Shown: one piece after another, positions 3,046 through 58,031 of the stretch
Layout of the letters: every line of letters begins with the position of its first letter
Position numbering within the stretch: the first letter of the stretch is position 1
Origin: a virus
Strand: one strand, 5' to 3'
IMG/VR virus record: IMGVR_UViG_3300010430_002753
Location: 17,272 to 81,271 of that record
Length of the DNA stretch: 64,000 nt
Notes under the pieces: model-generated
Databases searched by the model: none
The model's input: only the letters and a program-made list of their open reading frames with translations
What the model was told of the DNA's origin: nothing
Translations under genes and position numbers: made by a program

Positions 3046-3070
3046 ATCTACAACCTTTTTTATTTTTAAT

Positions 3071-3096
3071 TATAATCATTTAAAAATTATTGTCAA
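3071..3096 (-). promoter_or_regulatory. Sigma70-like promoter for the 243-3045 operon
   Basis: On the minus strand TTGACA (3096-3091) is followed after 16 bp by TATAAT (3076-3071). The -35 box directly abuts the stop codon of the upstream gene (3097). It is one of about 18 occurrences of the same TTGACA arrangement in this window. Confidence 0.75.
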
Positions 3097-4107: not shown

Positions 4108-5490
4108 TTATCTTTTTTGGTTATTATACATTTTTTTCTCTAAACTATCAGGTCCAAACATATTTGAAATTAAATCATCAATTGATATATATTCTTTTGC
4201 TACTTTATTATTTTGTTTATCAATATTTATAACAGGTATTTCAGATTTTGCTTGTTTTACTGAACATGGTTCATAACCAAAATGTTCATTAATTAGTTTA
4301 CATTGATTTACATTAGCAGTAATTCCAATACTATTTAAAAAATCATATGTATTATGAACTAATTCTGAAACGCAATTATATGTTTTTCCATCAATTGTCA
4401 TATTCATATTAGTATCTAGTTGATCACTTTGTTTTACTTCTACTAAATAATGTTTTACACCTTTAATATTAATTGTTTGCATATGTTCTTCCTTATTTTT
4501 ATTTATTTTTTTATTAAATTCTTCTTTTGTATATTCTTTACTGTTTATATAATATAATTCACTTATTATTTCTCCATCTTTATAATACCAAATTGAAGCT
4601 GGGCCGTCTAATCTATGAACTTCGTCTTTAGAATTATAATAACATTCATAATTTATTTTAGTTCTTTTATTATCAAAATAATTATAAATTTTATAATTTC
4701 CATTATCTAATAATTCTTTAGTTATATAATCATCAAGTATTATTATATTATTTCGTTTATTAAGAGCAACAACTTCTTGTCTAGTATCAAACTCTTGTTT
4801 TAGATATGTTTTATTGTTTATCCAATAGTGTTCACCTATAATTTCTCCAGATTTTGTATACCAAATTGTTGCTGGACCATTAATTCTATGTCTTTTACCA
4901 TTTTTATAAAATTCTAGTTTTTTAACAGTTTCACAATTTTTATAATATTTAATAACTGCTGGTTTATTTTTTCTATTAAACATATTATTATTGTTAAAAT
5001 AATATTCACCAATAATTTTAGTTTTATCTTTATTTAAATATTTTGTTATTTTATAATTACCGTTTTCTAATAATTCTTTATCTTCTAATTCTTTATAATC
5101 TAATTGATTTATTTTTTTATTATTAACTTTATTATGCCATTCTTTTCTAGTTAATTTTTTACCATCTAAATAATATTCAGATAAGTTATAACCAATAAAA
5201 GCTGGGCCATTTTCTCTATGAAGTTTATCATTAACATAATACCATTCAGCTATTACTTTATTTTTTTCATCATATAATATTTTTGCTGGACCTTGTTTTT
5301 TATCTAATTTATTTTTTCTAATCCATTGTTCTTCTGTATATCCATTTTCAAAAACAGATATTACAGCAGGTCCATTCTGCCTATCAATTTCTTTATTTTT
5401 ATTATAATACGTTGTAACTGTGTAATCAGATCCTTCTTCTACATATATAATTTTAAAACTTCCATTTTTAAAAGTTATAGTTTCAATCAT
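4108..5490 (-). CDS. Large YwqK/MORN-like GPA-repeat protein, 460 aa
   Basis: Three successive repeat blocks (about residues 5-110, 130-225 and 255-330) each have the pattern: ELLENGNYKI entry, a Lys-rich turn, an xxGPAxIxY core, then an EYYINxK strand and an EEF helix. This resembles the YwqK antitoxin/MORN-variant repeats. The last 120 residues (from MQTINIKGVKHYL) are a different, unrecognised domain. I start at 5490 because GGAGGTTATT lies just upstream; an in-frame TTG 12 bases earlier would overlap that site. It is the largest member of the window's GPA family and lacks the LLNK tail of the small ones. Function unknown. Confidence 0.8.
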   Translation of the reverse strand: MIETITFKNGSFKIIYVEEGSDYTVTTYYNKNKEIDRQNGPAVISVFENGYTEEQWIRKNKLDKKQGPAKILYDEKNKVIAEWYYVNDKLHRENGPAFIGYNLSEYYLDGKKLTRKEWHNKVNNKKINQLDYKELEDKELLENGNYKITKYLNKDKTKIIGEYYFNNNNMFNRKNKPAVIKYYKNCETVKKLEFYKNGKRHRINGPATIWYTKSGEIIGEHYWINNKTYLKQEFDTRQEVVALNKRNNIIILDDYITKELLDNGNYKIYNYFDNKRTKINYECYYNSKDEVHRLDGPASIWYYKDGEIISELYYINSKEYTKEEFNKKINKNKEEHMQTINIKGVKHYLVEVKQSDQLDTNMNMTIDGKTYNCVSELVHNTYDFLNSIGITANVNQCKLINEHFGYEPCSVKQAKSEIPVINIDKQNNKVAKEYISIDDLISNMFGPDSLEKKMYNNQKR

Positions 5491-9683: not shown

Positions 9684-10004
9684 TTATTTTTTATTTAATA
9701 ATTTTAAATTTCTTTCTATATTTCTAAATTTAATTACTTTTGGATGTTTATCAAATTCTTCTTTTATATAATTTATTCCATCTATAAAATAATATTTTAT
9801 ACCAATATAATTCTGTATTCTAAGTTCTTCTGTAATTGGAATATCGAACGGTGTATTTATTAATGCAGGCCCACTTAAATTATGTAAATGTTCTATAAAG
9901 ATTGCTTGGATATCTTCATCATTATATACATAATCTATAAGTTCTTTGTCTGTTTTAAATTCATATTTAATTCCATAAAAATATGCAATAATATTTGTAT
10001 TCAT
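9684..10004 (-). CDS. GPA-motif protein with LLNK tail, 106 aa
   Basis: Member of the window's small paralog family, in a subgroup starting with a short beta region (IIAYFYGIKYEFKTDKE). It has HLHNLSGPALIN in the middle, a YYFIDGINYIKEEF strand-turn-helix, and the tail NIERNLKLLNKK at the C-terminus. Related to 10341-10625 and 11981-12295. The start overlaps the stop of 10004-10297 (TAATG). The stop is followed after 8 bp by the -35 box of the vWA operon promoter. Function unknown. Confidence 0.75.
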   Translation of the reverse strand: MNTNIIAYFYGIKYEFKTDKELIDYVYNDEDIQAIFIEHLHNLSGPALINTPFDIPITEELRIQNYIGIKYYFIDGINYIKEEFDKHPKVIKFRNIERNLKLLNKK

Positions 10005-10311: not shown

Positions 10312-10340
10312 ATTATACATTACATAATTTTATTTGTCAA
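10312..10340 (-). promoter_or_regulatory. Sigma70-like promoter for 10004-10297 and 9684-10004
   Basis: TTGACA (10340-10335), 17 bp, perfect TATAAT (10317-10312). The -35 box ends exactly where the stop codon of the gene at 10341 begins. Confidence 0.8.
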
Positions 10341-16314: not shown

Positions 16315-17844
16315 TCATACTAAGTATCCAATGTTTTTATAATATTGCGTTTCTTGTATTATTTGTTCTTGAGTAGCTTTACCTTGTCTAATTTTAAAAA
16401 CTTTCATAAGTCCGTTAAACCAAGCAGTTGTCATATCCCCTCTAGTACCTAATGCAATATTACTAACGCCTCCATACCCAGACACAACATCACTTGTCCC
16501 AATAGAATTACTATCTACAAATACTTCATATGTTTCGGTATTCATATCCCAAACAATATCAAATTTATGTGCTTTGTTGTCTTTATAATTATTAAGATTG
16601 CCAACAGTTTTTGATCTCATCCAAAATATATCATCACTTAAAAATAAGATCCAATCACTAGCATAAGATCCACCTAATACATGGGCTTGTGAAGCTGCAT
16701 AACCAGAACCTATATTATTTGATAATTCTGTTATTGCAGTTAATGTAAAATCTATAGTTTCTGTTAAATCTATATTGATGCCTGTATCTATATATGCAGT
16801 ATTTGTATTTTTAAAGTAAACACCTTGATTTAAAAAATCAACATCTACGATTGCTTGGGTTATTTCAGGAGATGTTGCATTAAAAGCACTTTTATTTTTC
16901 TTGAAATCGTATTCCATGATAGGAGTAAGTTCAGCTGCTTTTAATTCTATAAATTCAAATCTTGTAATATTTGTAGTTCCTGCGTCAGCATTTCTTAAAT
17001 AAAATCCACTATTTTTTCCAATAACTTGTTCATCAAACACAAAAGTTCCTGTAAGAGCGCCAGTATAGTATCCACTAAAACTATCATCACCAACTCTAAA
17101 TTCAGTTGATGTAGTATTACCTTCTATAATTAATCTATATTTATTACCATTGACAATGGAATAATCCTTTTTAACTCCACCTGCTGCTGTTGTCGTAAAA
17201 CTATCATTATCTCCTATTGCTCCACCAACCATAGACCAACCACTAGTAAAATCCCAATTTAATACTATATTTTCCCCATACCCGGCTGTATTTGTAATAC
17301 CTTTATGTAATTTATTATTATATAATAATTCTACTTCTTCTGCTGTTAATGCTTTGTTGTATATTTCAAACAAATAAAAATCACCAACAAAATCAAAAGC
17401 AAGCCCTCCGTTTGTTCCAATAGTAAACGGATTAAGACCGCTACCATAATCTAATATTATATCTGATATTACAATGTCGTAATCTTGCCCAATAACAATA
17501 CTACTACTTGTTGACCCATCAACATATGAGATTCCAGATGAAATTAATATACTATCGTCAGCTTCAATACTACCTAATCCTTTACCATCAAAGTTTTTTG
17601 TTCTAAAATCAAATAATACTCTTGCTATATCATTATTAGTGCATTTACCTTTTATTCTAACACTGTAATTGCCTTTATGTCTTTTTTGATAAATTATAGA
17701 TGAAGTAGATAAACTAAAACTACCAACACCATTACTCAAACTAACATCAGTCGGAGTTCCTCCATTTTTATGAATTGCGTCAAAACTATTAAATGTTTCA
17801 CGAAACACACAACTTTTTTCTATATTATATAAACTTTCTTTCAT
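16315..17844 (-). CDS. LamG-like virion protein with two or three domains, 509 aa
   Basis: LamG-like halves end in FYLFEIYNKALTAEEVELLY (about residues 155-174) and MKVFKIRQGKATQEQIIQET near the C-terminus. Between them (about 190-300) is a carbohydrate-binding-like jelly roll (VLNWDFTSGWSMVGGAIGDN). Together with 15004-16290 and 13520-14953 it forms a set of adhesin-like late genes. Likely a tail fibre or capsid decoration component; the sequence alone does not settle which. Confidence 0.75.
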   Translation of the reverse strand: MKESLYNIEKSCVFRETFNSFDAIHKNGGTPTDVSLSNGVGSFSLSTSSIIYQKRHKGNYSVRIKGKCTNNDIARVLFDFRTKNFDGKGLGSIEADDSILISSGISYVDGSTSSSIVIGQDYDIVISDIILDYGSGLNPFTIGTNGGLAFDFVGDFYLFEIYNKALTAEEVELLYNNKLHKGITNTAGYGENIVLNWDFTSGWSMVGGAIGDNDSFTTTAAGGVKKDYSIVNGNKYRLIIEGNTTSTEFRVGDDSFSGYYTGALTGTFVFDEQVIGKNSGFYLRNADAGTTNITRFEFIELKAAELTPIMEYDFKKNKSAFNATSPEITQAIVDVDFLNQGVYFKNTNTAYIDTGINIDLTETIDFTLTAITELSNNIGSGYAASQAHVLGGSYASDWILFLSDDIFWMRSKTVGNLNNYKDNKAHKFDIVWDMNTETYEVFVDSNSIGTSDVVSGYGGVSNIALGTRGDMTTAWFNGLMKVFKIRQGKATQEQIIQETQYYKNIGYLV

Positions 17845-23013: not shown

Positions 23014-23042
23014 ATTATATTGTATAATTAAATAAATGTCAA
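23014..23042 (-). promoter_or_regulatory. Sigma70-like promoter for the Pth2-like gene and last tRNAs
   Basis: TTGACA (23042-23037), 17 bp, perfect TATAAT (23019-23014). The -35 box is 8 bp after the stop of the phosphatase gene at 23051. Confidence 0.8.
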
Positions 23043-28476: not shown

Positions 28477-28549
28477 AAGATCTAATTTTTAATTTCTTAA
28501 TCATTATAATTTGATTAAAGATTCTGTCAACTAAAAAATTATTTTTTAT
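28477..28549 (-). repeat. About 72-bp direct repeat carrying a promoter (copy 2)
   Basis: Second copy of the segment at 28125-28197, offset 352 bp. It includes the last codons and stop of the GPA gene at 28539, so the repeat spans the tail/promoter junction. Confidence 0.85.
28503..28530 (-). promoter_or_regulatory. Sigma70-like promoter for 28265-28405
   Basis: TTGACA (28530-28525), 16 bp, TATAAT (28508-28503). The -35 box lies 8 bp after the LLNKK stop codon at 28539. Confidence 0.75.
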
Positions 28550-28901
28550 TTAATAATTTTAAATTTCTATTAATATTTCTAAATTTAATAACTTCTGGGC
28601 GTTTATAGAACTCTTCTTTTGAATAACTTTTACCATTGATATAATAATATGCATGTTCTATTTCTCCAGATCTATTATACCAAATCATTGCTGGTCCATT
28701 TAATCGGTGTCGTTTTCTATTTATACAATATTGCATAGCTTCTATTTTGCCAGATTTATAATATTTAATCTCTGCGGGACCATATAAATTGTGAATATAA
28801 TCATTTTTGTTATAATACATATCATGCATAATTTTAGTATCTTTATCATCATAATATACAATTCTTCTGTAATTACCATTTTCTAATTCAATTCTTTTCA
28901 T
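28539..28901 (-). CDS. GPA-repeat protein with LLNK tail, 120 aa
   Basis: Standard family layout: MKRIELENGNYRRIVYYDDK entry; two GPA cores (YGPAEIKYYKSGKIEAMQY and LNGPAMIWYNRSGEIEHAYY); YYINGKSYSKEEF; tail NINRNLKLLNKK. Stop followed after 8 bp by TTGACA. The two-core length and clear repeat register make it a good reference member. Function unknown. Confidence 0.8.
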   Translation of the reverse strand: MKRIELENGNYRRIVYYDDKDTKIMHDMYYNKNDYIHNLYGPAEIKYYKSGKIEAMQYCINRKRHRLNGPAMIWYNRSGEIEHAYYYINGKSYSKEEFYKRPEVIKFRNINRNLKLLNKK

Positions 28902-32600: not shown

Positions 32601-33086
32601 TTAAACCTTATTTAATAATCTTAAATTTCTTTGAATATTAACAGTTTTGATATCATTTTTATCTATTATTTTATCTTTATATTTATAAAATTCATAAGCT
32701 ATATTTTTTTCATTATATACATTTTCATAATCTTCGTAATCAATTATTTCTATACATACAGTATCTATAGAATTAATTATTTCATTATTTTCATTTAATT
32801 TTATTATAATATTATTGTAAGAATAAAAATCATCTTCAGGTATATTTTCCTTAACCATAGAATTTTCAATACATATTGTATATTCATCAAATTCAATATG
32901 TATATTATTATTTTTATATTTTATAGTTCCAGTAAAATAATCACTATAATCCTCACAACTTAAAGAAAATCTATCTAAATAAGGAAGTTGTAATAATAAT
33001 TGTAAACCTTTTTCTCCAATAAAATACTCTAAAATTTTATTTAAATCATTTATAAATTTTTCTTTAAATAATAATTCTTTCAACAT
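32601..33086 (-). CDS. Unrelated protein bearing the LLNK tail, 161 aa
   Basis: The body has no GPA core: it starts with a helical segment (MLKELLFKEKFINDLNKILE), then a beta-rich acidic middle (FTGTIKYKNNNIHIEFDEYT). The C-terminus is VNIQRNLRLLNKV. This gene shows that the tail is a module attached to different domains. Function unknown. Confidence 0.75.
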   Translation of the reverse strand: MLKELLFKEKFINDLNKILEYFIGEKGLQLLLQLPYLDRFSLSCEDYSDYFTGTIKYKNNNIHIEFDEYTICIENSMVKENIPEDDFYSYNNIIIKLNENNEIINSIDTVCIEIIDYEDYENVYNEKNIAYEFYKYKDKIIDKNDIKTVNIQRNLRLLNKV

Positions 33087-33089
33087 TAA

Positions 33090-33401
33090 TTAATCCTTTT
33101 GCAATAACCTTAAATTTCTTTGTATATTAAATTCTTTTTCTGAACATCTTGTATTATCAATATAAAAAGATTCACAAAATACTTTTTCATTTTCATCATA
33201 CCAAATACAAGATGGACCGTTTAATCTATGAACAAATCCATGTTTATTCCATTCTTTATAAGCTATATTATTATTACTGTCGTAACATATTTTACTTGGT
33301 TTATCATTATAAGAATGAAGAAAACCTTCTTCGTCTAATAATTCTAATCTAATCAATTTAAATAATTTATTATATATTTTTTTATATTTAATGTTTAACA
33401 T
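33090..33401 (-). CDS. GPA-repeat protein with LLNK-like tail, 103 aa
   Basis: A charged N-terminus (MLNIKYKKIYNKLFKLIRLE), then the cores KPSKICYDSNNNIAYKEW and HRLNGPSCIWYDENEKVFCE, followed by FYIDNTRCSEKEFNIQRNLR and the ending LLQKD. Overlaps the end of the zinc-finger gene by 14 bp. Confidence 0.75.
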   Translation of the reverse strand: MLNIKYKKIYNKLFKLIRLELLDEEGFLHSYNDKPSKICYDSNNNIAYKEWNKHGFVHRLNGPSCIWYDENEKVFCESFYIDNTRCSEKEFNIQRNLRLLQKD

Positions 33402-34166: not shown

Positions 34167-34194
34167 ATTATACATTTATATAAAATAATGTCAA
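34167..34194 (-). promoter_or_regulatory. Sigma70-like promoter for the zinc-finger/prs/groEL operon
   Basis: TTGACA (34194-34189), 16 bp, TATAAT (34172-34167). The -35 box touches the stop of the gene at 34195. Confidence 0.8.
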
Positions 34195-37383: not shown

Positions 37384-37698
37384 TTATTTTTTATTTAATA
37401 ACTTTAAGTTTCTTATAATATTTGCTTCTTTTTTCCAATCGTCAATATTATTAAAACGTATACCATTTATATAATACCATCCACCATATATTTCTCCAGA
37501 TTCATAATATCTAATCTCAGCTGGTCCATCTAATCTGTGTAATTTATTATTTATATAATATGTTTCAGTTCTTATTTCTCCAGATTCATTATACCAAATA
37601 GATGCTGGACCGTCAATTCTATGTTTTTTACCATTTTTATAAAATTCTAGTTTTTTAACAGTTTCACCATTTTTATAATATTCAATTATTTCTTCCAC
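37384..37698 (-). CDS. GPA-repeat protein with LLNK tail, 104 aa
   Basis: Starts at the repeat itself (MEEIIEYYKNGETVKKLEFY), then HRIDGPASIWYNESGEIRTE and HRLDGPAEIRYYESGEIYGG, then YYINGIRFNNIDDW and tail NIIRNLKLLNKK. Its start overlaps the cca stop region by 2 bp. Shares the YKNGETVKKLEFYKNGK block with the large GPA protein (4108-5490) almost letter for letter, a sign of recent exchange. Confidence 0.8.
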   Translation of the reverse strand: MEEIIEYYKNGETVKKLEFYKNGKKHRIDGPASIWYNESGEIRTETYYINNKLHRLDGPAEIRYYESGEIYGGWYYINGIRFNNIDDWKKEANIIRNLKLLNKK

Positions 37699-40079: not shown

Positions 40080-40559
40080 TTATTTTTTATCTAATAACTT
40101 TAAATTTACTTGTATTTTAAAATCTTTTAAATTTTTACATCTAATTCTTTTTCCATTATAATAATATCGTATATAAGGATTAGGAGACATTGAATTATAC
40201 GCATTCATATATGATTCTAAATCTAAAACAGTAAATGCTGTATTTTCATCATATATAGTAGATGTAATCCAAGCTGGTCCGTTTATATTATGTAATTTTC
40301 CATCTTTATATTTTTTAAAACTAAATTCTGAACTTACAAAATTTACATAATTAATATATTCTTTTATAAATGTATTTACCAATTTTTTTGATGTCATTTG
40401 AATAATAATCTTAAACGTATCAAATACTATCAAATAATTATAATCAGATCCGTAATAATCGTGTATTTCTAATTTTGTATCAATATCAAATAATTTAATG
40501 TGACCAATTTTTGATGCAGATTTTATAATTTTATCTTTTAATTCTATTGATATTTTCAT
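40080..40559 (-). CDS. LLNK-tail protein, second subgroup, 159 aa
   Basis: A longer N-terminal domain (MKISIELKDKIIKSASKIGH ... LIVFDTFKIIIQMTSKKLVN) shared with 41125-41643, then FKKYKDGKLHNINGPAWITS, RYYYNGKRI and the variant tail KIQVNLKLLDKK. Function unknown. The DUF-like N-terminal domain distinguishes this subgroup from the short GPA proteins. Confidence 0.75.
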   Translation of the reverse strand: MKISIELKDKIIKSASKIGHIKLFDIDTKLEIHDYYGSDYNYLIVFDTFKIIIQMTSKKLVNTFIKEYINYVNFVSSEFSFKKYKDGKLHNINGPAWITSTIYDENTAFTVLDLESYMNAYNSMSPNPYIRYYYNGKRIRCKNLKDFKIQVNLKLLDKK

Positions 40560-41124: not shown

Positions 41125-41643
41125 TTAAACCTTATTTAATAACTTTAAATTTCTATTTATATTATATATTTTATCAAAATCTTTTTTATCTAACCCTCTT
41201 CCATGTAATTCATAATAATGTTCACAACATAAAGCTTTTCTATATTTAAAATATTCTTCATTTATATATTTTTTAGGATCTATAATATATTCATTCCAAA
41301 AATAATTAGAATTCATACTATTAAAATATACTCTGCTTGGACCTAAATCATTATGATATTTACCATTTTTTAAAAATTTAATAGTAAATGGCGATATTAC
41401 ATATTTTAAATATTTTCCATATTTTAAATGAATAATATTATTAATATATGTTGCCTTTGTATTTACTATTTCAATTTTAAATGTTTCAAAACATAATATA
41501 TAATAACTTTTATCGGCACCTTCATATTGTTTTAATTTTCCTATTGGATCTTTAACATTTAATATAGAATAATTAATATAATTATCTTTAAAATGTTTTT
41601 CAAAATGTTTTTTTAATTCTTTTTGAGTAATAATTTTTTTCAT
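41125..41643 (-). CDS. LLNK-tail protein, second subgroup, 172 aa
   Basis: N-terminal domain homologous to 40080-40559 (YYILCFETFKIEIVNTKATY), then FTIKFLKNGKYHNDLGPSRV (GPS core), a Tyr-rich middle and tail NINRNLKLLNKV. First gene of its operon after promoter 41668-41696. Confidence 0.75.
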   Translation of the reverse strand: MKKIITQKELKKHFEKHFKDNYINYSILNVKDPIGKLKQYEGADKSYYILCFETFKIEIVNTKATYINNIIHLKYGKYLKYVISPFTIKFLKNGKYHNDLGPSRVYFNSMNSNYFWNEYIIDPKKYINEEYFKYRKALCCEHYYELHGRGLDKKDFDKIYNINRNLKLLNKV

Positions 41644-41667: not shown

Positions 41668-41696
41668 ATTATAAATTACAATAACAATAATGTCAA
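41668..41696 (-). promoter_or_regulatory. Sigma70-like promoter for 40080-41643
   Basis: TTGACA (41696-41691), 17 bp, TATAAT (41673-41668). Directly downstream of the nrdJ terminator. Confidence 0.8.
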
Positions 41697-50309: not shown

Positions 50310-51464
50310 TTAATGATCTACTGTTGTGTTATTAACTTCTTTATTTTCTTCATTGTCTTTTATAATATCTTTTCCATCTTCATCTATAATATTACTATGA
50401 TCGACGTTTGTAACATATTTCATAATTTTATGTTCACATATTTTTTCATACATCCACTCTTTTATTTCTTTATTAACAGGATCATTTATAATAGAACTAA
50501 AAGATTCTGAAGTGAACTTTATTTTTTCACCTTTATACTCAAATGAATTTGTTCCAACTACATTAAATTTTTTAAGTTCAGATAGCCATGAACCGACATT
50601 ATCTATTCCACTATGAAAATATAAAGGAAATTCAATTTTCCTAAAAGGAGGTCCAACTCTATTTTTAACTACTTCTGCTCTAATCATAGCGCCCATAGGT
50701 TCTTTAGTTGTTTTATTTATTAACTTTTTAATTCTCGTTAATTTTATTCTTGTTGACATATGATATTTTACAGCCATACCGCCGGCAGTATCGTATTTTT
50801 CACCAAATGCCATTGCGTCTAGTTTTGCTCTGAATTGATTAACTACAACAAAAGTAATTTTTCTTCTTGCTATTTTTTGAGTTAATTTTCTCATAGCCTT
50901 TGTATTAATTTTAGCTTTAGCTGTAGCAAAACCATCTACTCCATAATCAGATTCCATTTCTGTTGCTGTTGAAGCACCAGCTAAACTATCTAATAAAAAT
51001 GTAACTGGGACATCTTTATTTTTACTTCTAATAGAATCAATTATCATTTCTATCATTTCATATATTTGTTCTAATGTTTCTAAATGAAAATATATCATTT
51101 TTTCTAAATCTACACCGATAACTCTTAAAAAATTTCTATCTACTGATGCTTCAGTATCTATATATACTGCAACACCGCCTTGACGTTGTGTATCAGCTAA
51201 CATATGCGCACCAATTAATGATTTACCACCACCAGATTCTCCAATAAGTTCTGTTATTCTTCCCATTGGAATACCTGCATTAGGTCTATTTGATATTATT
51301 AAATCCATTAAATCACTACCTGTAGAAATCCACCCAGGTATATCTGTTGGTGTTAATCTATCTGTAAATTCATTTAATAAATATGCTGCATCATGACCTA
51401 GAGATTTTTTAAAATGTTTATTTGCATCATCTACAATATTTGCAATATCTATTTTATTACTCAT
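50310..51464 (-). CDS. uvsX: RecA/UvsX-like recombinase, 384 aa
   Basis: Catalyses strand exchange. LIGESGGGKSLIGAHMLADT near residues 60-79 is Walker A, VPVTFLLDSLAGASTATEME near 152-171 is Walker B with downstream loop, and KITFVVVNQFRAKLD is the conserved motif before L2. Length and order match T4 UvsX. Acidic C-terminus (EDGKDIIKDNEENKEVNNT). Confidence 0.94.
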   Translation of the reverse strand: MSNKIDIANIVDDANKHFKKSLGHDAAYLLNEFTDRLTPTDIPGWISTGSDLMDLIISNRPNAGIPMGRITELIGESGGGKSLIGAHMLADTQRQGGVAVYIDTEASVDRNFLRVIGVDLEKMIYFHLETLEQIYEMIEMIIDSIRSKNKDVPVTFLLDSLAGASTATEMESDYGVDGFATAKAKINTKAMRKLTQKIARRKITFVVVNQFRAKLDAMAFGEKYDTAGGMAVKYHMSTRIKLTRIKKLINKTTKEPMGAMIRAEVVKNRVGPPFRKIEFPLYFHSGIDNVGSWLSELKKFNVVGTNSFEYKGEKIKFTSESFSSIINDPVNKEIKEWMYEKICEHKIMKYVTNVDHSNIIDEDGKDIIKDNEENKEVNNTTVDH

Positions 51465-51485
51465 AATTATCCTTTTTAATAGAAA

Positions 51486-51522
51486 AATAAGATTTATACA
51501 GATTTATAGTATAAATCTTATT
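51486..51522 (-). terminator. Hairpin terminator after the SSB gene
   Basis: AATAAGATTTATAC / GTATAAATCTTATT (14 bp), loop 9 nt, then TTTTCTATTAAAAAGG on the minus strand. Confidence 0.85.
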
Positions 51523-51536
51523 ATAATAACTTTAAA

Positions 51537-52328
51537 TTATTTTGAATTGTTTAAAACATTTTCAAATTTGTTTAAAACTGCTTGTTTGTCTAAATTTTGT
51601 TCTGTTGTTTGGTTTTCTGAATGTTGTTGAGTTTCAGTGGTTTCTTCAGTGTTTGATTTTTCAGGATCTGGATTAACATGTTTATCTAATTGAAATTTTA
51701 ACTCGTCATATGTATATCTAGGATATAAATCTTCAACTTTTGATTGTTCTTCAAGAATTTTTCTCATTAATTCTGTATCAGAAGTAACTGCACTTGGTTT
51801 AGGTAATACGTCAATAGTTGTTTCTCCATATTTATTACCACATTCTTCTGGAGTTCTAGATGTTACTTTTACCCAATTTCCTTCATAAGGATCTGTTATA
51901 TCGCCAAAATCTGCATCACTTACAATTTCAAGTAATTTTTGATAAATTTTAATACCAAAACCCCAAAATCTAACACCTTGATCTTCTTCACCTTCTACTA
52001 CTACAGGCACAAAAGTTCTTAATTTTGGTTCAAGACCTTTAGCAGTTTTGTATTCTTCTTTATCTAAATTTCCTTCACTTAACATAGCTTCAGATAATTC
52101 AATAAACGGATCTGCTTCATTATAAGTTTTTGGTGATAACATTGATGGTTTTCCATTAATTCCATAATGGAAGTATAACTCTCTAAATGGATTACCTTTA
52201 TCGTAAGTATAAGGTACAATTCTAATTTTAGATGAACCTTTTTTAGGACGCCAAATATTTTTTTTGCTGCTGTTTTTTGATTTTAATACACTAAGTTTAC
52301 TTTTTAATTGTTCCACATTAATTCCCAT
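51537..52328 (-). CDS. gp32-like single-strand DNA-binding protein, 263 aa
   Basis: Residues about 30-120 follow the T4 gp32 core (SSKIRIVPYTYDKGNPFREL, LYFHYGINGKPSMLSPKTYN). The Cys/His zinc set of T4 gp32 is absent. The middle (QGVRFWGFGIKIYQKLLEI) is basic/aromatic. The C-terminal tail (about 210-263) is rich in Glu/Gln/Thr and acidic, as in SSBs that recruit partners. Length is slightly below T4 gp32 (301). The upstream leader is discussed separately. Confidence 0.88.
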   Translation of the reverse strand: MGINVEQLKSKLSVLKSKNSSKKNIWRPKKGSSKIRIVPYTYDKGNPFRELYFHYGINGKPSMLSPKTYNEADPFIELSEAMLSEGNLDKEEYKTAKGLEPKLRTFVPVVVEGEEDQGVRFWGFGIKIYQKLLEIVSDADFGDITDPYEGNWVKVTSRTPEECGNKYGETTIDVLPKPSAVTSDTELMRKILEEQSKVEDLYPRYTYDELKFQLDKHVNPDPEKSNTEETTETQQHSENQTTEQNLDKQAVLNKFENVLNNSK

Positions 52329-52435
52329 TTTTCATTCTCCTTTGGCCGTTTGCCATTTGTCTTTCTTTTTTTGTTGTTTTTTCATTTGTCATTATTTATT
52401 TGTTGTTTTTCTTTATATAAATATCAATAAATAAA
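52329..52435 (-). promoter_or_regulatory. A-rich leader of the SSB gene with a mini-ORF
   Basis: About 100 bp of the transcript before the SSB gene is purine/A-rich and nearly free of hairpins (AACAACAAATAAATAATGACA ... ). It contains a 24-codon frame (MTNEKTTKKERQMANGQRRM) that overlaps the SSB start. This resembles unstructured leaders of autoregulated SSB genes. The role is inference. Confidence 0.45.
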
Positions 52436-52897
52436 TTAAATGAACACTTTTTTTACATTATCTAAATAATTTTCTTTTGTTTTCTTACTATATACTTTTT
52501 GAATTACTATATTAATTTTATGTAAATCATTATTTTTTAATAACAAAAATTTATCTGAATAATTATCCCAATTTACTCTATATTTAGGATTTGGCTTTCC
52601 ATCGTTTAATAACCAAATTAATCTATTTAATGCGTTAATTGTATAAAAAGTATTTGTTCCTCTTTTTCTTTGAATTAAAATAGTATTTGGTAAATATTGA
52701 ATTCTCTTTGATGGATCATCTTCTTTATATATATTATATATACAATATATATCATCAGAATTTTTATCTTTAATTACTGTTATTTCCTTATTATCAAGCA
52801 CTGAATTAAACCTAAATAAAATTTTTTTAACTGTTTTTTCTAAAATCTTCTCAGTTGTTTGTGTGCATAATAATTGTGTTTTTACATGTGTTGTCAA
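52436..52897 (-). CDS. Hypothetical protein, 153 aa
   Basis: Not recognised. Starts MTTHVKTQLLCTQTTEKILE, with a mixed alpha/beta pattern and a Lys-rich C-terminus. Upstream of the SSB gene; its neighbours suggest a replication or regulation role. AAAGGAGAAC precedes the ATG. Confidence 0.7.
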   Translation of the reverse strand: MTTHVKTQLLCTQTTEKILEKTVKKILFRFNSVLDNKEITVIKDKNSDDIYCIYNIYKEDDPSKRIQYLPNTILIQRKRGTNTFYTINALNRLIWLLNDGKPNPKYRVNWDNYSDKFLLLKNNDLHKINIVIQKVYSKKTKENYLDNVKKVFI

Positions 52898-52968
52898 AAT
52901 GTTCTCCTTTTTTTAGTATAACCTTTTAATTGATTTGTAAATTTTTAAATGTTATTTTTTATTGTTAT

Positions 52969-54324
52969 TTATTTTAATTTTTTTAATTCTTTATAATTTA
53001 ATCCATATTCTATATGAACTAAAAATTTACTTTCGCAACTCATTATATTTTTTATATCTTCTATAATATTTCCATCTTCAAAATTATAATCAACTAATAT
53101 TGCGTCATAATTATATAATACCATTTTAGATTTTTTATTTTTTAAATATTCTAATAAACTTTGTAATACATCTAGATTATTTTTAGTTTCTAAATTCTGA
53201 ATTATATAATTAAATAATGTTCCTCTATTAGCAATATTATTATTTTTTCTATTTATTAAAGGAATATATTGCCTTCCAGTTGACTTATATTCATACCATA
53301 TCATATCTATAAAATCACTAGTTTGTTTTATAAATGGAATATATTTATATTCTTCAAATCTTGCACTATATAATAATTTAAAAGATAGTTCTTTACCTTT
53401 TGCTAACATTTTATCACTTGCTATTTCATCAACTCTAAAATATTTTTTAGTTAAATATTCATGTATATGCTCATTTTTTGGAAATTCATAATCTATTAAA
53501 TCTGCTATTAAAGATAAATGATATGCACTATAATCAAATTCTATTAACATTCCATTTTCTTTAAATCTACTAACAAATGATTTTCTAGTATCATCTTTTT
53601 TATTTAATGCAACAAAATTTATATTATTCATATTATTTGAAGGTCTACCTGTTAATGTAGTAAATGAATAATCTTGATATATTTTATTATTAGATATATT
53701 AAAATCTTTATTTATTTTTTTAAAGTGATTATCAAATTCTTTAATATCTAAATATAATCCTGGTTTTTCTAATTCATAAAATATTGGTATTGCTGAATTA
53801 TTATAAATAACATATTCTTCACAATTTATATCCATATTAATAATCGTTTTAATAAAGCTATTTTTTATATTATTACAAAATTCATAATGTTTATAAATTG
53901 GTATTATCAAATTTATTTCTTTATAATTTGGATATTTTATATAATAATGGGTATATGCTTTTGTCGTATAATTATTAATATTATAATTTTTTAGTTTATT
54001 TAAATAATATAATAATTGTATATCATATATATTTTTATTTACATCAAAAAAATACATTAACTGTTTTTTATTTATTGTATACTTTTTAAAATTATTGTCA
54101 ATTACTTTTTTAAAAATATCATCTTTTTTTATATCACTATTTGGTGCTTCTGAATGTTTTATTGTTATTACATATTCTTTTTTAGAATTTATCATATAAA
54201 CATAAACTAATGATAAATCATTAACTATACTATGAAACTTTTTATTGAATGTTATTGGAATAATTAATAAATCTTCTTCAAACTTTAATTTATTAAATTC
54301 TTTTGATAATTCTATTATTTTCAT
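52969..54324 (-). CDS. Reduced family-A DNA polymerase-like protein, 451 aa
   Basis: Conserved palm motifs of family A: SFTTLTGRPSN (T-x-T-GR signature, about 220-230), GMLIEFDYSAYHLSLIADLI (motif A, with the catalytic Asp), LAKGKELSFKLLYSA (motif B-like, with Lys and YSA in place of YG), and VLYNYDAILVDYNF (motif C, with NYDAIL where HDE is usual). The upstream 200 residues are short and contain no 3'-5' exonuclease signature. It may be a small polymerase or translocation-deficient variant. Other polymerase subunits were not found here. Confidence 0.75.
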   Translation of the reverse strand: MKIIELSKEFNKLKFEEDLLIIPITFNKKFHSIVNDLSLVYVYMINSKKEYVITIKHSEAPNSDIKKDDIFKKVIDNNFKKYTINKKQLMYFFDVNKNIYDIQLLYYLNKLKNYNINNYTTKAYTHYYIKYPNYKEINLIIPIYKHYEFCNNIKNSFIKTIINMDINCEEYVIYNNSAIPIFYELEKPGLYLDIKEFDNHFKKINKDFNISNNKIYQDYSFTTLTGRPSNNMNNINFVALNKKDDTRKSFVSRFKENGMLIEFDYSAYHLSLIADLIDYEFPKNEHIHEYLTKKYFRVDEIASDKMLAKGKELSFKLLYSARFEEYKYIPFIKQTSDFIDMIWYEYKSTGRQYIPLINRKNNNIANRGTLFNYIIQNLETKNNLDVLQSLLEYLKNKKSKMVLYNYDAILVDYNFEDGNIIEDIKNIMSCESKFLVHIEYGLNYKELKKLK

Positions 54325-54360
54325 ATTATTAATAACCTCATAATGATATTTTTAAAATAA

Positions 54361-54400
54361 CCTTTCGTATATATTAAATTATAAAACTATATACGAAAGG
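54361..54400 (-). promoter_or_regulatory. Hairpin in the leader of the polymerase gene
   Basis: CCTTTCGTATATA / TATATACGAAAGG, 13-bp perfect stem with a 14-nt loop, located 37 bp upstream of the polymerase ATG and inside its transcript. It is followed by TTATTTT, so an attenuator or a translational operator are both possible. Confidence 0.5.
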
Positions 54401-54453
54401 AATGTAGGAGAAGCAACGATGTTCTTGTTAAAATAATTTTAATTGATAAAAAT

Positions 54454-54481
54454 ATTATACATCTTTTAAAACTTATGTCAA
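54454..54481 (-). promoter_or_regulatory. Sigma70-like promoter for the polymerase gene
   Basis: TTGACA (54481-54476), 16 bp, TATAAT (54459-54454). It sits just after the stop of the Prim-Pol fusion gene. Confidence 0.8.
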
Positions 54482-54488
54482 CTATTTT

Positions 54489-56129
54489 TTAAAACTTTTT
54501 TGTCTTTATTTTATTTAAAATTTTTACTAATTTTTTATTATCTATAATAGGCAAATTTGAGTAATCACCTTGTATTGTATATTGTCTTTTTATGCCATCT
54601 CTACCTATAACCATTGATGGATATACTGCTACAAAATGTTTATATCCAAATACCTCTATTATATCTTTATCGTTATTTGTATTTTCTAATTTAAAAACAG
54701 TTCTTCCAGGCCATATTTCATTTGTTAAAATCCATAAATGTCTACCGTTTGTTGCTGTCTTTTCATATATTATATTATCTAAATTTAAATTGTCAACTAA
54801 ATAATCGAAAATTTTATTTATTTTATCATTGTATACATCTAAATCAATTATTATAAAATAATTACCGTTAATTATTTTTCCTGTTTTTATTCCTATATTA
54901 TTATCTTCATTAAAATCGTTTGCAGTATACATCTTATTATAAGATTTTTCTATATCAAATTTATCTGCGTCTATTGATTGTTTTGATAATGGGCCAAATG
55001 GAGCTATTTCATATCCAACATCAATATATTTTTGAGCATAATCTTTTATGTTTTCTATATTATTATAATTATATACACCTTCACTGTCAGTAAGATCTTG
55101 AATAAATTGTAATAATGAATTTCCAGAAACTTCTTGTATTTTATTAAAATCTATTTCTGTTACTTGATAATCTAAACCATTAGATGGAGTTGCTACTATA
55201 TAATTACCTCTTCCAATAATTTTACAATCTTTAAAATATATAGTTTCTAGATATGAATCGGTTGTATATACAAATATTTGAATTCTATTTTTAAATTTTC
55301 TAAAAAATGTATTATTTGTAAATTCTAATATTTGTTCTACTAAACCTGGATTAGGCTCAATAACGGTTAAATATTTATTTTCATCATTTACAATAGTTCC
55401 AGTTTTTATACCAATATTTAAATTACTATTTGAAAAATCTAACATATTATATTTTGTATTTAAAAATAAATATAAATTATCTATAATATTTTCAGGATAA
55501 ACACTGTTACTTTTTAATGGTATAGAATCAAATCCTAAATTATTATAAGTAGTATAATATATCTGATTATTATTTTTATTTACACCTGGTGTATTTCCTT
55601 GCTGAAATATTAATTCGTCTTGTGGCTTATAATATTCCATCAAATTTGATAATTTATTTTCTAAACCTATTATATAATCTTTATTTTCATTTACTTGAAT
55701 TCTATTATGAACAACAACGGCTTCTGTGTTTCCATTTATCATCCATTCAATACTTATCTTTTTATAATATTCTGAATCTAAAGAATTATATTGATTTTCA
55801 TCTATTTCTATTATAGAAATTTCTGAATTAAATTTTTGTACAAAATATCTTAATAAAAAATTATTATCATAATCTATATTTATAGGTTTTACTTCTTTAG
55901 CATATATTTTTTTAATTCTACTATAATCTTCATTTATGGTTTTATAATATTCAACTTCGTTATCAATATCACCTTGTAAATTTTTACCAGTATTTTCTAT
56001 TAATTTTAATTGTATTGATATTCCAAAAATATATTCATTGCCAGTATATGAATTATTATCTGGGCCTATAGTATACTGACCTATATATGGTATGTTATTT
56101 AATAAAAATTTTGTTCCATCAGTATACAT
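54489..56129 (-). CDS. Virion structural protein fused to tandem Prim-Pol-like domains, 546 aa
   Basis: Residues 1-180 match a known virion-protein type: FLLNNIPYIGQYTIGPDNNS at the start, then LLRYFVQKFNSEISIIEIDE. Residues about 190-350 are a degenerate Prim-Pol unit (NIGIKTGTIVNDEN, TVIEPNPG in place of the hhDhD acid pair, then IIGRGNYIVATPS). Residues about 355-540 are a canonical unit: YIDVGYEIAPFGPLSKQ, NIGIKTGKIINGNYFIIIDL (DLD catalytic pair), TATNGRHLWI and IEVFGYKHFVAVYPSMV. Position inside the tail/baseplate operon agrees with the first part. A primase in a virion gene is unusual. Confidence 0.8.
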   Translation of the reverse strand: MYTDGTKFLLNNIPYIGQYTIGPDNNSYTGNEYIFGISIQLKLIENTGKNLQGDIDNEVEYYKTINEDYSRIKKIYAKEVKPINIDYDNNFLLRYFVQKFNSEISIIEIDENQYNSLDSEYYKKISIEWMINGNTEAVVVHNRIQVNENKDYIIGLENKLSNLMEYYKPQDELIFQQGNTPGVNKNNNQIYYTTYNNLGFDSIPLKSNSVYPENIIDNLYLFLNTKYNMLDFSNSNLNIGIKTGTIVNDENKYLTVIEPNPGLVEQILEFTNNTFFRKFKNRIQIFVYTTDSYLETIYFKDCKIIGRGNYIVATPSNGLDYQVTEIDFNKIQEVSGNSLLQFIQDLTDSEGVYNYNNIENIKDYAQKYIDVGYEIAPFGPLSKQSIDADKFDIEKSYNKMYTANDFNEDNNIGIKTGKIINGNYFIIIDLDVYNDKINKIFDYLVDNLNLDNIIYEKTATNGRHLWILTNEIWPGRTVFKLENTNNDKDIIEVFGYKHFVAVYPSMVIGRDGIKRQYTIQGDYSNLPIIDNKKLVKILNKIKTKKF

Positions 56130-58031
56130 TTATAAATTATCTCCATTTGCATCAACATCTAATCCAAATCTCATTATACCAGCAATTTCTGTGTCCCATT
56201 TACTAGCATCTATTTTATCGACAACTTCTGTTATTTGAAATGCTATATTATTTTTTTCATATCTTTCTGGTAAGTAATCAACAGAAAATAGATTTCCAAA
56301 TTCTAAACCTGATATTCCATCAATTGTTAAACCCATACTTATAGGCAATAATCTATTATTGCTTATTCTATTATTATAATTAGAATCTGGTTCATCTAAT
56401 AAATTTTTATAATATTCCCACATAACTTCTGGTATTATGGCTTTATGAGTATGTCTTTTTTTTAATAATAGTTTATTTAATTTTTTTTCATTTTGTTTAT
56501 ATTCTATAGAACCTTTATAATCAGCTTTTTCTATAGTTTTAACACTATTTTCTTCTCTAATTTGTTTTAATAATCTATCTTCTACATCACCAAATAATCC
56601 TTCTATAGATAAATTTTCAGATCTATCTGAGTGTAATGAATGAAGTGCAGCCGTTTTAAATGTATCAGGTATATTAGATGCAACATCAATATTTTTTACT
56701 ATTGAATCGTATTTGTAAACTGGGAACATAAATAATTTATCTTTATTTTCAGAAATTTCATTTTGTAACCATCTAGAATCTATTATTTTACATTTGCCTT
56801 CTTCTGTGTCTGGTAATAAAATTAAATTCCAATATCCAGCAGAGTATTGATTTAACATATCTAATAAAGAATTAATAGCGTCCATTATTGTTTCACTATT
56901 TGTAAATATTTCAACAACAGTATCTAAATTAATTAATATGTTTCGAACAACACCAACACTTTTATCTTTTGCTAAAATATTAACAAAATTTTTTGCACCA
57001 ATAATACCGACAGGATTACCAGGTATTATAAATTTTTTATAATCTAACGATCTTAATTTTGAATGATTTCTAATAAGAACTTCAGATTTTTCTCTTGTAA
57101 ATTTATTTGTATTAGTACTTTCAAATACACTGATACTATTTTTGTCGCTACCTCTAGTTACAAATGGTTTTATTATATGGTTTTCTATAAATCCTATTGG
57201 AACATAAGTAGATCCACCAAATAATTTTTTAATTTCAACTGGTTTAAAATCCTTTATACTATCAACATAATCAGAATCTGAACATTTATTTTTTAGAGTT
57301 TCTACAAATGATTTAATATTTTGTTTTTTACCATCTGCTATATCTACGTCTAATGAATCTTCTATTTTTCTAAATGCCGCTTCAAATCCTCTAGCTGTTA
57401 ATTTTACTTTACAACTAAATGTTCCATTAGTATTCATTGACCATCCAAAATCTGTAACATAACCCATCATAATATCAGAAGAGTAATTTGTATTTTTTCT
57501 AAATCCTCTTATTAAATCTGGTAATTCTTCATTAGTTAATTTTTCTACACCATCATCATATTCAATTCCAGATTCTACATTTATATTGCCAAATTGATCT
57601 ACAGTCCAACCCCATTGTAATACACATGTAGTTCCAGGCGTCATATATAAAGTTTCAATATTAGTTAATTGATCTCTAGTAAAACAAACTATATTTAATT
57701 CTGCAATTCTTATACTACCATATTTACCTCTAGATGATATAGTTGCAGTTTGAATTATTGGTGTAGGTCTTAATGGAATATCGTCTATCATAGCATATGA
57801 TTTATCAAATGTTCCGTCATTAGACACTACTGTTCCTTCTAAAATATATGATTCTGCTAGGTTTTTAGGTAATTTGTCGTTCATTGGAATAACGTTAGAA
57901 AATAATTTTATCCATGGTATTCTAGAATTCCATTTTAAATACGAATCATTATCTTTTTGTGATTGTAATTCTATACGTTTATTTAAAATTTTAACTACAT
58001 CATTATTTATATTTGAACCGAATAAAGCCAT
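56130..58031 (-). CDS. Baseplate / tail structural protein, 633 aa
   Basis: Starts MALFGSNINNDVVKILNKRI. The middle has TPGTTCVLQWGWTVDQFGNI and SDIMMGYVTDFGWSMNTNGT, with a later VVDKIDASKWDTEIAGIMRF, a beta-rich style of contractile-tail hub or wedge proteins. Homology to a specific T4 gene is not clear. Stop/start junctions to neighbours are 1-10 bp. Confidence 0.7.
   Translation of the reverse strand: MALFGSNINNDVVKILNKRIELQSQKDNDSYLKWNSRIPWIKLFSNVIPMNDKLPKNLAESYILEGTVVSNDGTFDKSYAMIDDIPLRPTPIIQTATISSRGKYGSIRIAELNIVCFTRDQLTNIETLYMTPGTTCVLQWGWTVDQFGNINVESGIEYDDGVEKLTNEELPDLIRGFRKNTNYSSDIMMGYVTDFGWSMNTNGTFSCKVKLTARGFEAAFRKIEDSLDVDIADGKKQNIKSFVETLKNKCSDSDYVDSIKDFKPVEIKKLFGGSTYVPIGFIENHIIKPFVTRGSDKNSISVFESTNTNKFTREKSEVLIRNHSKLRSLDYKKFIIPGNPVGIIGAKNFVNILAKDKSVGVVRNILINLDTVVEIFTNSETIMDAINSLLDMLNQYSAGYWNLILLPDTEEGKCKIIDSRWLQNEISENKDKLFMFPVYKYDSIVKNIDVASNIPDTFKTAALHSLHSDRSENLSIEGLFGDVEDRLLKQIREENSVKTIEKADYKGSIEYKQNEKKLNKLLLKKRHTHKAIIPEVMWEYYKNLLDEPDSNYNNRISNNRLLPISMGLTIDGISGLEFGNLFSVDYLPERYEKNNIAFQITEVVDKIDASKWDTEIAGIMRFGLDVDANGDNL

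Follow-up and report, generated by a model that had tools for sequence, protein, structure and literature searches.

A phage gene that joins a small protein of the baseplate-hub region to a primase-polymerase (Prim-Pol) core in one open reading frame (ORF) was found in a 64,000-nucleotide window of the 81,271-base virus record IMGVR_UViG_3300010430_002753 (IMG/VR; positions 17,272 to 81,271). The gene occupies positions 54489–56129 of the window on the minus strand, which a preliminary description of this DNA had not specified, and it encodes 546 amino acids without an internal stop. Its product consists of an N-terminal domain (N-domain) whose relatives are encoded by stand-alone genes directly downstream of the hub gene, a middle unit that resembles a decayed Prim-Pol, and a C-terminal unit that retains all catalytic motifs. 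The explanation that we favour, tentatively, is that of a late-made, lineage-specific fusion, in which the N-domain would do a job in the hub module and the Prim-Pol would be an active, tethered passenger.

54489..56129, minus strand: complete fusion ORF, 546 amino acids plus stop; an open reading frame with an identical protein in a second contig
55599..56129, minus strand: N-domain, amino acids 1–177; hub-module family, stand-alone in relatives (alignment A8, predicted structure, gene position)
55050..55589, minus strand: putative degenerate Prim-Pol unit, amino acids 181–360; NIGIKTG at 238, VIEPNPG replacing DxD at 256, no sxH, ATPS at 313
54492..55049, minus strand: intact Prim-Pol core, amino acids 361–546 (Pfam, PHROG, predicted structure, Foldseek)

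The C-terminal unit is a Prim-Pol core

By family match, motifs and predicted fold, amino acids 361–546 are an archaeo-eukaryotic Prim-Pol core. They include a match to the Prim-Pol family PF09250 at amino acids 365–518 (E = 6.4e-6; 27.1 bits against a gathering cut-off of 22.8) and match phrog_1156 ('DNA primase') at 3.5e-11. The motifs of archaeo-eukaryotic primases have been defined as hhhDhD/E, sxH and hD/E (PMC4538821) and all three are present, with landmarks DLD at 429, NGRH at 461, IEVFG at 491 and YPS at 503. The preliminary description had called this unit intact on the strength of DLD, NGRH and YPS, and its reading is borne out; it had also allowed that the C-terminal half might prove to match a virion-only family, and this half is instead Prim-Pol by sequence and by fold.

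54837..54854, minus strand: motif I (hhhDhD), IIIDLD, amino acids 426–431; aspartates invariant in alignment A10
54738..54746, minus strand: motif II (sxH), GRH, amino acids 462–464; glycine and histidine invariant in alignment A10
54654..54659, minus strand: motif III (hD/E), IE, amino acids 491–492; glutamate where aspartate is usual

The glutamate of motif III is apparently common to another phage Prim-Pol (L122, in alignment A10). When amino acids 180–546 were modelled with AlphaFold2 (AF2), with 12 Prim-Pols in the alignment, the core reached a predicted local distance difference test (pLDDT) score of about 90. The best 12 Foldseek matches of this model in the PDB were all Prim-Pols (pRN1, NrS-1 and Marinitoga CAPP; best E 5.5e-9), a fold match that depends in part on the sequence match, since the alignment included Prim-Pol rows. 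Single-sequence searches with the Prim-Pol part gave nothing by tblastn against phages and plasmids and nothing relevant by phmmer against the PDB, and homologues were therefore reached through motif alignments; the search alignment A7 included, in one row, a motif variant composed by hand, which steered the scan only and is not evidence.

The middle unit resembles a degenerate Prim-Pol copy

The preliminary description had proposed a decayed second unit without catalytic acids, and several comparisons agree with this. The middle and C-terminal units match each other by BLASTP (E = 7e-4) with 'N.NIGIKTG.I.N' in common, and their semiglobal alignment score was reached by only 1 of 1000 shuffles. 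Against a profile of 13 unrelated phage Prim-Pols the middle unit scored 10.5 bits, the intact unit 37.6 and the N-domain −1.6; none of 1000 shuffles equalled the middle unit (best at most 4.6 bits) and other segments of the window scored at most 2.5 bits. The stretches matched by the profile were the N-terminal Gly/KP region and the motif III/PS strand. Catalytic motifs I and II are missing, with VIEPNP in place of hhhDhD and no sxH. Comparison by hhalign pointed weakly in the same direction, and in AF2 models the middle unit was never confidently folded. Homology of amino acids 181–360 to Prim-Pol, as a degenerate copy, is thus supported but not proven.

The N-domain belongs to a hub-adjacent family

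Genes transcribed upstream of the fusion encode, in order, a T4-like baseplate protein (63959), the tape measure (62887), a 604-amino-acid protein, a LysM/gp53-like wedge protein and a 633-amino-acid hub-like protein; past the fusion follow genes for a PolA-like protein, an unnamed small protein, gp32, RecA, a second unnamed small protein, a 5'–3' exonuclease and DnaB helicase. The 633-amino-acid protein is hub-like by its position and by homology to a protein of Flavobacterium phage immuto, which carries a VanY peptidase. The fusion directly follows this gene in the run of baseplate genes, as the preliminary placement within a baseplate operon had it.

56130..58031, minus strand: baseplate hub-like gene, 633 amino acids, directly upstream of the fusion; its stop abuts the fusion ATG
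52969..54324, minus strand: PolA-like gene, first in the replication operon and the marker used to find relatives; immuto homologue matches PF00476 at 4.6e-11

Relatives were obtained as 80 loci (L numbers) fetched via the PolA-like neighbour, together with immuto, Microcystis phage Mel-JY01 and LR756508. The N-family gene lies directly downstream of the hub gene, within 100 bp of it in 67 of the 68 loci that hold both, and is as close to the PolA gene in only 63 of 76; the family therefore belongs to the hub module and travels with the hub. The N-domain is a member of this hub-adjacent family of small proteins both by homology and by its position directly after the hub gene. From alignment A8 (31 stand-alone homologues) it was modelled with pLDDT mostly above 90, and it was the only part to fold when the whole protein was modelled. 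Three short proteins of uncultured phages matched the model in BFVD at E below 0.001 (Foldseek); there was no significant match in the PDB, and no family was matched in Pfam, PHROG or NCBIfam. Of the earlier proposal that amino acids 1–180 are of a virion-protein type, the hub-adjacent gene order stands, while a match to a named family or solved structure was not obtained.

N-family ORFs in relatives span 135–331 amino acids, save two short fragments and one member of 568 amino acids (L071, 4833–6539). The latter is a second case of C-terminal extension, long, charged and RG-rich and without Prim-Pol motifs, and some other N-family proteins have Gly/Ser tails. Two neighbouring copies of the hub gene in one locus (L048, 6276–9936) and of the hub-adjacent gene in another (L027, about 4772–5290) suggest local duplication within the hub module.

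Integrity and distribution of the fusion

A second IMG/VR contig (3300006467_000449) matches over 23.7 kb with 35 single-nucleotide polymorphisms (SNPs) and encodes a fusion protein that is 100% identical. No SNP falls within 50,445–57,005. The possibility that an assembly chimera or frameshift artefact had joined two genes was raised in the preliminary description, with separate genes in relatives as its sign, and the N-domain is indeed encoded separately in relatives. Yet the contig with 35 SNPs has the same ORF, and the junction has no stop, Shine–Dalgarno sequence or plausible start; misassembly was rejected, and an artefact of either kind now deserves scarcely any credence. Tandem DNA repeats were absent from the fusion gene.

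The preliminary description had advised looking for the fusion in relatives, and none of those examined carries the Prim-Pol part. Single-sequence searches of viral contigs matched only the phage's own second contig, searches of genome contigs yielded no confirmed relative, and a phmmer search of the Prim-Pol part against 3,048 ORFs of the relatives' loci found only the phage's own copies. Profile searches of genomes (PF09250, phrog_1156) failed to recover G000, in which a copy is known, and their negatives were discarded. The fusion is, on these searches, lineage-specific, being seen in one lineage only among the relatives examined.

Expression signals around the fusion gene

The ATG of the fusion abuts the stop of the hub gene and is preceded by a Shine–Dalgarno sequence within the end of that gene; other genes here have Shine–Dalgarno sites likewise. 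An internal translation start for the Prim-Pol was considered and rejected, as no Shine–Dalgarno sequence is found near the ATG/TTG codons at amino acids 163, 164, 229 and 400. Given the coupled start and the lack of an internal one, translation of the Prim-Pol is expected only within the fusion.

56141..56144, minus strand: Shine–Dalgarno GGAG for the fusion, within the hub gene end, 11 nt ahead of the ATG
54454..54481, minus strand: perfect sigma70-type promoter-like TTGACA-N16-TATAAT, starting 8 nt past the fusion stop
41669–41696, 34167–34194, 28503–28530, 23014–23042, 10312–10340 and 3069–3096, minus strand: other promoter-like sites, perfect matches
54361..54400, minus strand: perfect inverted repeat of 13 bp, CCTTTCGTATATA/TATATACGAAAGG, located in the PolA-like gene's leader and not recurring exactly elsewhere in the window

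Perfect TTGACA-N16/17-TATAAT sites number 8 on the minus strand against 0.07 expected, and are mostly extended upstream by TAG (TAGTTGACA-N16/17-TATAAT). None lies in the tail genes at 55.1–64 kb or in the structural region at 13.5–23 kb. The eight TAGTTGACA-type sites are probably early promoters of the phage, and the one at 54454..54481 is likely to mark the start of the replication operon. The fusion is probably made with the late tail proteins, because its start is coupled to the hub gene, the tail genes lack such promoters and the replication promoter begins past the fusion stop. A late-side, coupled start without an internal one fits the earlier reading of a baseplate operon. One of the eight, a perfect site at 54769–54796 (minus strand), lies inside the coding part of the intact Prim-Pol at about amino acid 445, and could either fire towards the PolA operon or have arisen by chance. 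The inverted repeat CCTTTCGTATATA/TATATACGAAAGG is a possible operator or translational hairpin.

A cargo slot between hub and replication modules

In relatives whose N and PolA genes are not adjacent, the gap between the two is usually filled by cargo, which in most cases includes ThyX. Other cargo comprises APS-kinase-like, nucleotidyltransferase-like, NagB-like, PIG-L-like, glycosyltransferase-like, ATP-grasp and small dioxygenase-like proteins, names that were assigned by eye from the sequences and not from a library search. In L048 the gap contains the second hub gene.

L022, L024, L050, L056, L062, L064, L066, L075, L078, L083: cargo-slot loci; ThyX commonest, with other metabolic enzymes

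The Prim-Pol fills this slot in the phage studied here, in frame with the N gene, and we infer that it arrived as cargo.

Other features of the window and its relatives

The PolA-like proteins of about 450 amino acids (window 52969–54324; L008 1–1326) have YDA at motif C, where family A polymerases usually have HDE. Immuto has an additional family A polymerase of 777 amino acids and, given this second enzyme, the shorter paralogue may have a special role. A C-terminal motif like NI.RNLKLLNKK/V recurs in many small proteins, of which most, though not all, also have GPA.IWY..G repeats; this suggests that they have a C-terminal tag in common or form an expanded family.

Window 9684–10004, 28539–28901, 32601–33086, 33090–33401, 37384–37698, 40080–40559 and 41125–41643; L093 1021–2564 and 3184–4157: proteins with the C-terminal motif

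Possible roles of the fusion

In the explanation that we favour, a tandem Prim-Pol gene, its first copy decayed and its second intact, would have entered the slot that separates the hub module from the replication operon and have become joined in frame to the gene for the small hub-adjacent protein. The N-domain would keep its hub or tail-tip job, with part of the product built into the particle, and the Prim-Pol core would polymerise DNA or extend primers on the phage genome, either as this enters the cell or late in infection, when it has been newly replicated; the decayed copy might serve as a spacer or DNA-binding surface. The fused enzyme would supplement the DnaG of the clade, not replace it. 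Passage of a folded polymerase through the tail tube is doubtful, and action at the tail tip or late in the cell is at least as likely as injection. By analogy with the primases transferred in conjugation, the phage tail might itself carry a DNA primase-polymerase as their virion counterpart, with the N-domain as anchor and the enzyme placed at the DNA exit point or entering with the genome; we regard this stronger proposal as rather unlikely.

Several points count against the Prim-Pol being an active passenger of a hub-module protein. The assignment of amino acids 1–180 to the virion comes from gene order and the N-domain falls in no named family; no proteomics for this phage or a relative was found in the literature searched. 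Helicase and PriCT-type accessory domains, which often accompany primases, are absent from the core, homologues are too distant for purifying selection to be assessed, and with the promoter-like site at 54796 inside the ORF the border between early and late genes may not be sharp.

Alternatively, the activity of the Prim-Pol might be confined to late infection inside the cell, where it would fill gaps in replicating DNA or repair it; the fusion would be incidental, and the Prim-Pol would have no meaningful part in the virion. Its intact catalytic motifs, the adjoining replication operon (PolA, gp32, RecA, exonuclease, DnaB) and the mostly metabolic, non-structural cargo of relatives at this slot all speak for such a role, which we nevertheless think unlikely as well, since the Prim-Pol lacks its own start and promoter, shares in the coupling of the fusion to the hub gene and in all its copies carries the hub-module domain. 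A purely structural or DNA-binding role, with both Prim-Pol folds kept as a scaffold and the enzyme unused, would suit a protein in which one of two copies has clearly lost its catalytic residues, whose core lacks accessory domains and whose N-family relatives carry other C-terminal extensions, as in L071 and those with Gly/Ser tails. However, motifs I and II of the second copy still have their invariant residues and its motif III a permitted one; that all of these should be retained would be unexpected under neutrality, and this makes the scaffold improbable.

The lineage might also have lost DnaG, leaving the fused Prim-Pol as the replicative primase with DnaB helicase. DnaG was not found in the 81-kb record and the fusion gene sits beside the PolA and DnaB operon, but terminase and capsid genes were not seen in this record either, marking it as a fragment that lacks the very region in which immuto has dnaG, far from its hub/PolA operon. 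Of the 12 records searched, 7 had the same DnaG as immuto, and these were all large (159–484 kb); the five without a match are shorter (12.7–133 kb) and may be fragments. A late-side position is moreover wrong for an early replicative primase, and we hold replacement to be very improbable.

Relation to known systems

The best solved matches, pRN1 ORF904 (PDB 3m1m, 1rni) and the NrS-1 primase-polymerase (6a9w), share the Prim-Pol core fold and motifs I–III with the protein described here. ORF904 carries helix-bundle and helicase parts; none was found here, and the fusion partner of the core is a tail-module protein. Phage Prim-Pol replicases (phrog_1156, phrog_695; Sfi21 p38; BFK20 gp43) have the same catalytic domain, detectable by sequence, but occur in replication modules, stand-alone or fused to a helicase, and no virion-module fusion was seen among them. 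Conversely, immuto gp032 and Mel-JY01 WWT39332 resemble the fusion in the N-domain, in gene position and in starting directly after the hub gene, and unlike it end after the N-domain or in other tails, without a Prim-Pol.

Few enzymes are known to reach the cell together with phage DNA, and the most familiar of them travel in the head. Like the fusion, whose gene context is probably late, polyvalent proteins are multidomain products in a late context that pair a domain of the virion module with an enzyme acting on nucleic acids (Iyer et al., 2017; PMC5512222). Primpol occurs in that survey only in conjugative elements (PMC5512222), whereas the gene described here is a phage tail-module gene without a metallopeptidase domain by Pfam. 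The N4 virion RNA polymerase is packaged and injected, and conjugatively transferred primases, TraC1 and Sog, are known (PMC5512222). The N4 enzyme is a conceptual precedent for a packaged and injected polymerase; it differs in fold, in its RNA product and in being packaged in the head, while the virion location of the fusion is putative, suggested by its gene neighbours. The preliminary description had called a virion-borne primase-polymerase unseen: no report of a Prim-Pol fused to a tail protein was found in the open-licence papers searched, whereas N4, TraC1 and Sog are precedents for the broader idea.

If the explanation that we favour is true, a Prim-Pol that is produced solely within a tail-module protein would suggest that phages can use the tail to bring in or place enzymes of DNA synthesis, much as conjugative plasmids transfer their primases. 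Even if the protein is not in the particle, the gene shows the boundary between tail and replication modules capturing and fusing cargo, and its tandem of an active-looking and an apparently decayed Prim-Pol is a natural construct for tests.
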